Part shown: positions 15,452-52,464 of the stretch, in pieces
How the letters are laid out: each line of letters begins with the position of its first letter
How positions within the stretch are numbered: the first letter of the stretch is position 1
Assembly: GCA_020845705.1 (NCBI GenBank)
Contig: JADLFH010000040.1
Span: forward strand, 62,001-126,000
Direction of reading: 5' to 3'
From: Microthrixaceae bacterium
Lineage (GTDB): Bacteria > Actinomycetota > Acidimicrobiia > Acidimicrobiales > Microtrichaceae
Length of the DNA: 64,000 nucleotides
Translations under genes and position numbers: made by a program
The notes under the pieces: generated by a model
Databases searched by the model: none
Seen by the model: only the letters and a program-made list of their open reading frames with translations
What the model was told of the DNA's origin: nothing

Positions 15452-15507
15452 CCCGTTCTGTGATGCGAGACACGACGCAAACGTCGTGTCTCGCATCACA
15501 GAACGGG
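15452..15507. terminator. 26-bp perfect hairpin with CAAA loop between hpf and secA
   Basis: cccgttctgtgatgcgagacacgacg-caaa-cgtcgtgtctcgcatcacagaacggg. Confidence 0.6.
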
Positions 15508-15571
15508 GGGGTGGGGGGGGTGGGGGGGGTGGGGGGGTTGGGGGGGTGGGGGGGGTTGGGGGGGTGGGGGG
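15505..15571 (+). repeat. G-run tract (eight G6-8 runs separated by T/TT; C-rich on transcribed strand RNA)
   Basis: G7 T G8 T G8 T G7 TT G7 T G8 TT G7 T G6 ending at hpf stop codon. Confidence 0.9.
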
Positions 15572-45824: not shown

Positions 45825-46373
45825 ATGCGTTGGAAGACATTCACCATCCTCAGTGCCCTGACCCTGGCGGTTACCGCTTGTTACACCCCCCCGACGGGAG
45901 GCGGCGGCTCCACCACCACCTCGACGTCATCGACTACTACTACGTCGTCGACGACCACCACCACCACCACCACAACAACGACAACGACGACCACCACGAC
46001 GACGCTGCCACCGTCGCCGATCGTCGTGAACGGCACCGCAGACAAGACCGTCGGTTGCTTCTCCGGCCTCGGCGGCGGTGACGACGAACAGGTCGACCTC
46101 GGAGTGGACGGCTGGTGGGACTTCGGGTTCCAAGGTTGCACGGCCTTCGAAACCGAGACCGTCGCCCTGATCGACCCTATCGGCGGCCCCACCGGTGACG
46201 CCTTCCAGGCGCCCACCGGCTACGAGTGCTCGATGGACGTCGATGGCGACACTGCCGGCCCTTACACCAACCAGATCGGTGCGACGGCCGACACGGGCGG
46301 CAAGATCTTCATCAACTCGTCCCACGCTTGGCCAAACACCACCAACTGGACCATCACCTGCAACCCGATCTGA
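45825..46373 (+). CDS. Secreted lipoprotein with long poly-Thr linker
   Basis: MRWKTFTILSALTLAVTACYTPP lipobox; STTTSTSSTTTTSS-T18-LPPSP; Cys-containing C-terminal domain. Confidence 0.78.
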   Translation: MRWKTFTILSALTLAVTACYTPPTGGGGSTTTSTSSTTTTSSTTTTTTTTTTTTTTTTTTLPPSPIVVNGTADKTVGCFSGLGGGDDEQVDLGVDGWWDFGFQGCTAFETETVALIDPIGGPTGDAFQAPTGYECSMDVDGDTAGPYTNQIGATADTGGKIFINSSHAWPNTTNWTITCNPI

Positions 46374-48723: not shown

Positions 48724-50238
48724 TCAGCGACACTTGGCGGCCTCCTCCGGATCGATGGGCACCAACCCCACCACCGTGGTCGACGGCGTCGCCGGTGGAG
48801 CGGTTGTCACCGGCGCTCCGGGTTGCGGCACAAGGGTGGTGGTAGCACCTCGCCGGCCGGGGACCGTTGTGGTCGTGGCGCTGGCGAGGGGCGGCGCCTC
48901 GATCGCCTCGCGTGGCAGTGGCTCGCTACGGACGCCCTTGAGGTCCTCGCCCATCACGAGATGAACCCGGGCGCCGGGGAGATCCGGGTCGTAGGTGAAC
49001 CGAGCGGGCCCCTCCAACCACCTCGCCAGCACTGCCGCCCCCTCGCGGCCCCGCGCCCCGAAGCGGATCACGGTCTTGGCGGGTCGCTTCCCGGAGGCAT
49101 CGCCGTCGGCCATCACGTCAGTGTCGAACCCGTGGGACTCCAGCGCCGACGAGATCGCCGCCGCCGCGTCGGGACCGGCTTCGGGGCCGATCTCAACCTG
49201 AACGTTGCGGGGTGTGACCTCCCGGCCGTAGACGAGGCCGCGGAACACGTCGAGGATCGGCTCTGCCTGTTCCCAGTCGACCACCTGATAGGAGACCTTC
49301 GAGCTCTTCCCCGAGCCGGTCGGGAGCTGGTACTTCTGGAGGGACTCGACGTTGAAGTTGCCGAACCGTGCGGCGAGGTCTCGGATCTGGCCCACCGTCA
49401 TGGTGTTGTCGATGGTGATTGCGTTGGTTGCCGCGTCGATCAGCGACAGCGCCGTGGCGGGATTCCGCGCCCCACGGTCCACCGCCCGCTGTGCAGCACG
49501 TTCGATGAAGTCCTGCTGGCGGCTGATCCGTCCCAGGTCGCTGGAGGCGTCGGGGACCCACTTGCCCGTCTTCGGGTCCTTGTACTGGAGGTGACGGGAA
49601 CGGGCGTACGCCAGCGCCTGAACCGGATCCAACACGATGCAGCCTGTCTCGGTGAGGTTGAGTCCGGTGTGCTCCGTGTCGCGTACGGGCACCGTGAGGT
49701 ACACGGGGATGCCGTCGAGGGCGGCGACCAGTTGGCGGAAACCCTGGAAGTCGACCTCCACGTAGTTGTCGATGGAGATCCCGAAGTCACGCTTGATCGT
49801 GTCGATCAGGTTCTCCGACCCCCGTGACCCGGCGATGGCCGAATTGATCTTGCCCTTGTCTCCGAACGGGGCGATCGGCAGCCAGGTGTCACGAGGGATC
49901 GAAAGCAGCGACGCCCGGTTCTCCCTGGGTTCCAGCCGGGCAACCATGATGACGTCCGCCAGCCGCCCGCCTCGCCCACGCTTCGAGCGCACCGGATCCG
50001 TCGGATCGAGTCGATCCGCGTTGTCGGTGCCGATGATGAGGATGTTGCGCGGCTCGTCGTCGGCGAGCTTCGGGGCCAGCGACACACCCAGCTCCAGCGT
50101 GTCGAGCGATGCGACCTTCGAACGGAACAGGCTCAGGCCGCCCGCCGCGCTCAGGCATACCAGCACCAGCACCACATTCGTTGCGAGTAGGAGTCGCTGG
50201 GGCCACGATCGGCGGACCCGCCGAGCCGAGGGAGCCAC
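48724..50238 (-). CDS. LytR-CpsA-Psr (LCP) family protein with LytR_C domain
   Basis: RNILIIGTDNADR...SLLSIPRDTWLPI; VEVDFQGFRQLVAALDGI; Thr-rich tail; start set at GTG 50238 supported by TAGCGT-N8-GTG. Confidence 0.9.
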   Translation of the reverse strand: MAPSARRVRRSWPQRLLLATNVVLVLVCLSAAGGLSLFRSKVASLDTLELGVSLAPKLADDEPRNILIIGTDNADRLDPTDPVRSKRGRGGRLADVIMVARLEPRENRASLLSIPRDTWLPIAPFGDKGKINSAIAGSRGSENLIDTIKRDFGISIDNYVEVDFQGFRQLVAALDGIPVYLTVPVRDTEHTGLNLTETGCIVLDPVQALAYARSRHLQYKDPKTGKWVPDASSDLGRISRQQDFIERAAQRAVDRGARNPATALSLIDAATNAITIDNTMTVGQIRDLAARFGNFNVESLQKYQLPTGSGKSSKVSYQVVDWEQAEPILDVFRGLVYGREVTPRNVQVEIGPEAGPDAAAAISSALESHGFDTDVMADGDASGKRPAKTVIRFGARGREGAAVLARWLEGPARFTYDPDLPGARVHLVMGEDLKGVRSEPLPREAIEAPPLASATTTTVPGRRGATTTLVPQPGAPVTTAPPATPSTTVVGLVPIDPEEAAKCR

Positions 50239-50246
50239 GAGCCCCG

Positions 50247-50252
50247 ACGCTA
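50247..50252 (-). promoter_or_regulatory. -10-like TAGCGT, 8 nt upstream of LCP gene GTG
   Basis: TAGCGT-cggggctc-GTG on minus strand. Confidence 0.4.
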
Positions 50253-50297
50253 GCAGCCACCTTCGCGGCGCCGGTCTCGGCACCTGGGCGGTCCACT

Positions 50298-50514
50298 TTG
50301 AGGCAGCACGGCCCGGCCCGCCTTGCCTCAAACTCATTCATGAGGCAGGAGGGGCCGGAAACCGCACCGCCTTGCCTCAAGAACCGGTTTGAGGCAGCAG
50401 GGGCCGGGGCATTGAGGCAGGAGGGGCCGGAAACCGCACCGCCTTGCCTCAAGAACCGGTTTGAGGCAGCAGGGGCCGGGGTATTGAGGCAGGAGGGGCC
50501 GGGGCATTGAGGCA
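50298..50514. repeat. TGAGGCA repeat array: two 72-bp tandem units plus two 23-bp partial units, with inverted copies
   Basis: 72-bp units at 50341 and 50413 differ at one base; partial units at 50485 and 50508; 7 direct and 3 inverted copies of the TGAGGCA core. Confidence 0.95.
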
Positions 50515-50573
50515 GGAGGGGCCGCTCACGGGAACCGTCCCGCCTTCTCCGGAAGCCCCTGGAGCCACTCATC

Positions 50574-50585: not shown

Positions 50586-51614
50586 GTGGCCGCCGCCCCC
50601 CTCGCCGTGGTCGGCGACCGCCTCTGCACCGACCTGCTCGATGTCACCTCCGACCTCTCGGCACTCGACTCCCAGGGGTTCTGGGCGGTCGTCGTCCCCT
50701 ACGACGGAGCACCTGTGTGTGCTCGCTTCGGCACGGTTCGCCCGGCTCGACCTTGGCGGGGTGCGCGCTGGCACGGGCCGAGCCCATCGTCGTGGTCCTC
50801 GAGTCTCGACGAGAAGGGCTTCGGGCTCGGGGTGGAGGAGATCCGCGCGGCGATCGCGGCGGGCGACGTGTACCAGGTGAACCTCACCCGTGTGCTGTCG
50901 GCCCCCGTCGAGGACCTCGACGACCCACATCACGACATCGCGGCGCTCGGCGCTGCTCTGGCCCTCGGCAATCCGGCCCCCTTCTCGGCCGTGGTGCGCG
51001 TCCCCCCGGCAGGGGTAGCGATCGCTTCGGCGTCTCCCGAGCGGTACCTCCGACGCGACGGACGGCGCGTCGCCTCGTCTCCGATCAAGGGCACCGCGGC
51101 TACGCCCGACGGCTTCACTCCGAAGGACCACGCCGAGAACATCATGATCGTGGACCTCGTACGCAACGACTTGGGCCGGGTTTGCGAGTACGGGTCGGTG
51201 AGCGTGCCTTCGCTGTTGGCGGTCGAAGCCCATCCGGGCCTGCACCACCTCGTCTCCACTGTCAGCGGCGAGCTGCGCGACGACCTCGGCTGGCCCGAAC
51301 TGATCGACGCCACGTTCCCGCCCGGCTCGGTGACCGGAGCCCCCAAGATCGCGGCCTGTTCGATCATCTCCCGGCTCGAGCCGGCCTCCCGTGGCCCTTA
51401 CTGCGGAGCCATCGGGTGGGTTGACGCCGGGTCGCGAACGGGCGAGCTCAACGTGGCGATCCGCACGTTCTGGATCGACGAAGGTCGACTCTGCTTCGGC
51501 ACCGGAGGCGGGATCACCTGGGATTCGACCGCCACCGGCGAGTGGGCCGAGACGCAGCTCAAGGCTGCCCGGCTCCTGTCGGTGGCGTCGGGGGCCGCGG
51601 AGCCCGTGCCATGA
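50586..51614 (+). CDS. pabB: Aminodeoxychorismate synthase component I / anthranilate synthase-like
   Basis: IAAGDVYQVNLTRVL; SPERYLRRDGRRVASSPIKGT; HHLVSTVSGELR. Confidence 0.9.
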   Translation: MAAAPLAVVGDRLCTDLLDVTSDLSALDSQGFWAVVVPYDGAPVCARFGTVRPARPWRGARWHGPSPSSWSSSLDEKGFGLGVEEIRAAIAAGDVYQVNLTRVLSAPVEDLDDPHHDIAALGAALALGNPAPFSAVVRVPPAGVAIASASPERYLRRDGRRVASSPIKGTAATPDGFTPKDHAENIMIVDLVRNDLGRVCEYGSVSVPSLLAVEAHPGLHHLVSTVSGELRDDLGWPELIDATFPPGSVTGAPKIAACSIISRLEPASRGPYCGAIGWVDAGSRTGELNVAIRTFWIDEGRLCFGTGGGITWDSTATGEWAETQLKAARLLSVASGAAEPVP

Positions 51615-51627
51615 GCGATGCTGTGCG

Positions 51628-52464
51628 ATGAGCCGGGTCTGGATCAACGGCGAGATGATCGATGAGGCCGACGCCCGAGTCGCCTACGACGACCATGGGA
51701 TCACCGTCGGCGACGGCGCGTTCGAGACCGCGAAGGTAATCGGTGGCCGGCCCTTCGCCCTCCGCCGTCACCTCGACCGCCTTGGTGGATCGCTTGCCGC
51801 CCTTCGGCTGGGACCCCTTGACCTCGCGACGGTTCGTGACGCGGTCGAAGCGGTGTGCGCCGACCACGGCGGCGACGGCTTCGTGAGGGTCACCGTGACC
51901 GCGGGACGAGGCCCGCTCGGCTCACCACGGGGCGACATCAGCCCTACGGTGATCGTCGCCATCCGGCCGGGGTCGATCCGCACCGAACCCTGCGACGTGA
52001 TCGTCGTGGGCTACACGCGCAACGAGAACGGGGCACTGGCGGGCGTCAAGTCCACCTCCTACGCCGAGAACGTGCTCGCTCTCGCCGATGCGCTGGCCGT
52101 GGGATCCGAGGAGGCGCTCTTCGCGAACACCGCCGGGATGCTCTGCGAAGGCACCGGCTCCAACGTGTTCGTGGGCCTCGACGGCGAGTTGCTCACGCCC
52201 CCGCTTTCCGCCGGCTGCCTGGCGGGGGTGACCCGGGCCCTGGTGCTGGAACAACTCGACGTGGCGCTACGGGAAGCCGACATACCGATGGACGCACTCG
52301 GCCGGTGTGACGAGATGTTCCTGGTTTCCACCGGTCGGGAGGTCCAGCCTGTCCGTTCGATCGACGGCGTCGCGTTGCCGGGCTGTCCCGGACACTGGAC
52401 CAACATGGTCCGGTCGGCGTGGGTCGCGGCGTTCAGCGGCCCCGACGCTCCCATCGACCCCTGA
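51628..52464 (+). CDS. pabC: Class IV aminotransferase (aminodeoxychorismate lyase-like)
   Basis: WINGEMIDEADARVAYDDHGITVGDGAFETAKV; GVKSTSYAENVLAL. Confidence 0.85.
   Translation: MSRVWINGEMIDEADARVAYDDHGITVGDGAFETAKVIGGRPFALRRHLDRLGGSLAALRLGPLDLATVRDAVEAVCADHGGDGFVRVTVTAGRGPLGSPRGDISPTVIVAIRPGSIRTEPCDVIVVGYTRNENGALAGVKSTSYAENVLALADALAVGSEEALFANTAGMLCEGTGSNVFVGLDGELLTPPLSAGCLAGVTRALVLEQLDVALREADIPMDALGRCDEMFLVSTGREVQPVRSIDGVALPGCPGHWTNMVRSAWVAAFSGPDAPIDP

Follow-up and report, generated by a model that had tools for sequence, protein, structure and literature searches.

What is the dense cluster of TGAGGCA motifs that lies between the divergent genes lcp and pabB? In the 64,000-nucleotide stretch of DNA analysed here (the window, whose numbering is used for the locus), the original prediction recognized this cluster and offered three options: a multi-site operator for an unknown regulator, a nucleoid- or partition-type binding cluster, or an expanding selfish repeat. 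The features of the locus are:

48724-50337, minus strand: lcp, a LytR-CpsA-Psr family gene; the start of its open frame lies inside the array
50297-50525, plus strand: the whole array, composed of half-units TTGAGGCA..GGNCCGG
50297-50407, plus strand: canonical 111-bp element of a genome-wide family (123 bits with model R1, E 2e-30)
50297-50332, no strand assigned: first palindrome, with 18-bp arms that are 78% complementary
50336-50384, no strand assigned: first copy of a 49-nt palindrome with TTC../..GAAC feet (model R2, 59.6 bits)
50341-50484, plus strand: two tandem 72-bp units with one difference
50408-50456, no strand assigned: second copy of the 49-nt palindrome (model R2, 48.5 bits)
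50461-50524, plus strand: 23-bp direct tail units, 2.8 copies
50586-51614, plus strand: pabB, a chorismate-binding enzyme gene
51628-52464: aminotransferase class IV gene, downstream of pabB

The layout of the array was largely as predicted. TGAGGCA starts at 50299, 50341, 50390, 50413, 50462, 50485 and 50508; the predicted coordinates were mostly one base lower and correspond to the start of TTGAGGCA. Inverted copies (TGCCTCA) lie exactly where they had been placed, at 50324, 50373 and 50445, giving the half-unit order direct, inverted, direct, inverted, direct, direct, inverted, direct, direct, direct. The dyad TGCCTCAAGAACCGGTTTGAGGCA indeed recurs at 72-bp spacing (50373 and 50445), and two 72-bp units with a single mismatch, and 23-bp units after them, were also seen. 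A third dyad at 50324 (TGCCTCA-N10-TGAGGCA) had been overlooked, as had the nested hairpins of the array and its copies elsewhere in the genome. The ten 7-mers compare with 0.06 expected per region in a first-order Markov simulation, where the maximum in 2000 runs was two. The array had also been placed between the -10 elements of two divergent genes; it does lie between lcp and pabB, but a consensus scan for promoters of the sigma-70 type found no -10 element. As homology of lcp to its relatives begins only at about residue 40-45, the true start of this gene is probably at ~50240 or lower.

The original prediction called for a genome-wide search, taking a lack of other copies as evidence against it, and many copies were found. 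A covariance model built from 25 copies detected about 30 strong sites (E near 4e-12 or better) in the 2.9 Mb of the array's own genome, with the window copy scoring second highest. A 19-base array pattern matched this genome 81 times and its reversed control not once; in 60 relatives, including one congener, the same pattern occurred only sporadically and never as an array. Two adjacent tail units had no match in GTDB contigs, a set from which the own genome is perhaps absent. Aligned copies follow one plan, TGAGGCA-18-TGCCTCA-10-TGAGGCA-25-TGCCTCA-10-TGAGGCA-(16-TGAGGCA)n, in which successive half-units, alternately direct and inverted, start 25, 17, 32 and 17 bp apart, with a further direct half-unit every 23 bp thereafter. 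In this species the standard composite holds two palindromes plus half-units in ~111-130 bp. Similarity among copies ends at the array ends, except in a sub-family (L016:2381-2552, L030:2488-2659, L310 and L311); L016 and L030 have in common an extra flank, GCGAACTTGCGTACGGATCCGTCGC, a small palindromic repeat with more copies in L030. Another locus (L010) has two decayed single copies, G000:C23:9011-9115 and G000:C23:10241-10364, separated by 1.2 kb; they enclose small genes, one of them rhodanese-like, and a TetR regulator gene adjoins the second copy.

Could such a repeat family be produced by misassembly of a metagenome bin? The assembly is fragmented (193 contigs, 75% complete) and some copies lie at contig ends, so the exact copy number at this locus is uncertain. 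However, the same architecture is found in many copies with unique flanks, and kindred families occur in independent genomes, one of them a single contig; we consider an assembly artefact extremely improbable.

To see where the element resides, we classified the sites for which both neighbours were known, calling genes with an ad hoc finder based on codon usage. Every one of the 34 sites was intergenic: 15 between tandem, 14 between convergent and 5 between divergent genes. At least one gene 3' end adjoins 29 of them, although divergent sites are not significantly depleted (p = 0.11). In several arrays the TGA of TGAGGCA is the stop codon of the neighbouring gene, or the array begins within ~20 bp of a stop codon.

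We also compared the lcp-pabB region with that of relatives. Of 15 relatives, 14 have the two genes side by side in divergent orientation, and no element match was found in the pabB-flanking regions of any of the 15. The distance from lcp residue 45 to pabB residue 6 amounts to 395 in the window; the 14 relatives that have both genes show 114-261, with a median of 178. The excess is about one array length, and taking out the ~235 bp of the array leaves 160. Because relatives are without the element at this place and the spacing minus the array approximates theirs, the simplest reading is that the array was added to a pre-existing intergenic region. The element would have been gained between lcp and pabB after the split from the sampled relatives. 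The nearest empty site was seen at the family level, since a same-genus genome (75% complete) yielded no clear pabB orthologue (best match 41% identity).

These observations bear directly on the operator option, in which the array would be bound by a regulator dedicated to lcp and pabB. The divergent position and the 7-bp half-sites repeated in direct and inverted orientation are what such an operator might look like. Yet at least 30 other sites exist, gene 3' ends are where most of them are found, and the 14 of 34 in convergent gaps have no promoter to control; the array is, moreover, absent from 15 relatives that keep pabB, 14 of them with lcp adjoining. The half-site spacings of 17, 23, 25 and 32 bp also appear to have no common helical phase. 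We therefore rejected a private operator and regard this option as very unlikely; reading such arrays as local operators is tempting but probably wrong. If lcp or pabB were affected at all, this would be a side effect of insertion into the leader they share.

The core of the array is a 49-nt palindrome with a GTTC foot, a GAGGC shoulder and a CG-N5-CG apex; either of its strands can form a hairpin. When weak model matches in other families were read, they proved to be single hairpins, and strong ones, and a scan of 298 genomes across the order revealed about ten other genomes with several copies. The multi-copy genomes from families other than that of the window are:

G033, G037, G041, G045, G097, G099, G134, G164, G223 and G300 (copies in G300 are somewhat shorter)

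Phylum-wide, only isolated matches and no multi-copy family were seen beyond the order; in these scans E-values are rough, no more than 15-20 candidates were scored per genome, and the model was partly built from the same genomes. Long hairpins are not a general feature, as a de novo scan of 68 relatives' loci found only four that were intergenic. The host is an uncultured actinobacterium, and among named records the closest protein matches come mostly from Acidimicrobiia/Acidimicrobiales MAGs. Three records titled Bifidobacterium breve MAG (L093, L094 and L121) encode proteins 68-75% identical to the product of the own biotin carboxylase-like gene; Acidimicrobiia MAGs have similar identity, and the titles are probably wrong.

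The length of the palindrome is nearly constant and its stem is not. Measured with a loose pattern allowing a free gap of 15-45, the distance from GTTC to the pattern end was exactly 44 nt in 37/41 matches in G045, 16/18 in G134 and 12/22 in G037. The stems are genome-specific (GTTCTCGAGGC..., GTTCATGCGGC..., GTTCTTGGCGC... and GTTCCGGAGGC...), with CG or a C/G pair around five loop bases at the apex and mostly paired GTTC/GAAC feet, amounting to 22-23 pairs in 49-50 bp. In a set of 19 sequences drawn from nine genomes, both partners vary in 16 of the 22 pairs; covariation scored 0.512 compared with 0.164 after shuffling and at most 0.12 in slid controls, and G-C pairs flip to C-G within G037 alone. 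In G134 (L213-L221), the 49-nt hairpins are nested in a longer common palindrome, GGCGAGTTCCCCGACGGG..., that resembles a larger MITE.

Covariation at a fixed length could reflect a host function of the hairpin rather than selfishness. Template switching inside hairpins may preserve pairing without selection for structure, but the constant length is harder to explain in this way. One such function would be that of a beneficial RNA element, in which hairpins at 3' ends stop transcription or protect mRNA ends, so that length and pairing are selected while sequence drifts. The placement at gene 3' ends and near stop codons and the strong compensatory change at fixed length agree with this, as does the folding of the array (RNA folding z of -4.5 on the plus and -3.7 on the minus strand). 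On the other hand, no T-run, as required of an intrinsic terminator, follows the hairpin at the window array, which sits in a divergent region and hence at no 3' end; copies within a genome are far more alike than termination would require, and relatives lack the family at the orthologous place. Rfam 15 gave no match to a known structured RNA at gathering score, and we dismissed miRNA-like matches far below that score as chance. A beneficial RNA element is possible, but we doubt it.

Binding sites spread over the chromosome for a protein of the nucleoid, gyrase or partition type, a role known for the BIMEs spread over enterobacterial chromosomes, would likewise account for dispersed, oriented, intergenic palindromes of fixed size with conserved apex and feet. 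However, stem sequences differ strongly between genomes of the order and the families are patchy, both hardly compatible with a core function of the chromosome, and no candidate protein emerged. We judge this explanation to be unlikely.

The window contains a member of a second hairpin family (family B):

15455-15504, no strand assigned: perfect 50-nt palindrome, GTTCTGTGATGC...GCATCACAGAAC, GTTC-footed

Used as a pattern, one of its arms matched 30 times in the own genome and 30 times in G005, a genome of this family assembled as one contig, and there were a few matches in five further genomes of the family; the two arms of a copy are at a constant offset of 30, for a total of 50 nt. Copies have compensating stems, with C-rich flanks on the left and G-rich flanks on the right. 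In the window, a tandem-repeat finder identified an adjoining G-rich tract (15505-15571, GGGGGGGTG), and the typical right flank of the family appears to be expanded here; hairpin and tract together span 15455-15571.

How might these palindromes spread? The Y1 transposase domain (PF01797; IS200/IS605/RAYT) was found in none of 15 palindrome-carrying genomes, including the own genome at 75% completeness, whereas control genomes were positive, and we therefore rejected mobilization by RAYT or IS200. A transposase beside the elements was rejected as well, as the 60 genes neighbouring array loci were ordinary and included no recurrent transposase family; TetR_N was the commonest domain, with four genes. 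In-place tandem duplication is evident in steps of 72 bp and 23 bp here and of 61 bp in G045, where tandem hairpins (L196, L199, L205-L208, L210 and L212) are often identical and include ~17 bp of locus-specific flank; judged from their sequence, the 61-bp copies are recent in-place duplications.

Of the three options in the original prediction, the expanding selfish repeat fits best, given at least 30 dispersed intergenic copies, absence at the orthologous place and local tandem expansion. Specifically, the array is probably one expanded copy of a non-autonomous REP/BIME-like interspersed palindromic repeat that is mobilized in trans. Spread between sites would most likely involve a trans-acting enzyme that recognizes the hairpin and is other than any Y1 (IS200/IS605/RAYT) transposase of the tested genomes. 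Once gained, the element would have grown in place by tandem duplication with 72-bp and 23-bp steps, probably through slipped-strand copying helped by the hairpins. More tentatively, there may be an order-wide class of Acidimicrobiia-like hairpins, mobile or functional, that is defined by fixed geometry (49-50 bp, GTTC foot, CG apex) and not by sequence, and that is copied, without a Y1 transposase, by an undescribed enzyme that reads shape and length.

REP/BIME and REPIN sequences are mobilized by RAYT (TnpA-REP) transposases (PMC3733652, PMC2817692, PMC3116915), and a 2013 survey defines the GTAG and CGTC super-families of REPs (PMC3733652). The elements described here resemble REP/BIME/REPIN sequences as short intergenic palindromes with tens of copies, genome-specific sequence and paired-stem variation; in their supply of stop codons; and in composite arrays of opposite orientation that are reiterated in tandem with flanking DNA. 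REPs prefer tandem and convergent gaps; here 29/34 sites lie in such gaps, with a depletion of divergent sites that is not significant (p = 0.11). In contrast to GTAG REPs of 20-40 bp with 5-13 bp stems (PMC3733652), they measure 49-50 bp with 17-23 bp stems, and a paired GTTC/GAAC foot replaces the unpaired GTAG tag; unlike REPs with a RAYT, they have no Y1 transposase in the 15 genomes. Dispersal without a dedicated transposase and loops of 4-5 nt are shared with CGTC-tagged REPs, whose 8-9 bp stem, unpaired CGTC tag and CCA tail are, however, absent here (PMC3733652). The hosts are Acidimicrobiia-like actinobacteria, and the word Actinobacteria is absent from the 2013 survey (PMC3733652).

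The elements are small palindromes with many intergenic copies, REP-like in behaviour, and they are not members of the described GTAG or CGTC families because they have no unpaired tag, a longer stem and no RAYT in the 15 genomes. A non-coding, dispersed and composite make-up, with internal modules in varying number, is also seen in MITEs and in modular elements such as the pneumococcal BOX. Yet here the whole element is palindromic, no parent transposon was found among neighbouring genes, and, in family B, none of 31 copies had a target-site duplication (direct repeat of at least 3 bp). The best reading is a new group of non-autonomous REP-like interspersed palindromes, locally expanded at this locus by tandem duplication. 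The best-known REP-like palindromes are those of proteobacteria, and they are tied to RAYT transposases; with near-constant-size palindromes and fast-changing compensating stems in at least a dozen actinobacterial genomes, and no RAYT, the copying of REP-like elements without a RAYT becomes testable in a defined clade. Elsewhere in the window, a further tandem repeat, ACGACCACC (45951-46000), lies within a small gene for a Thr-rich, secreted-protein-like product (45825-46373).
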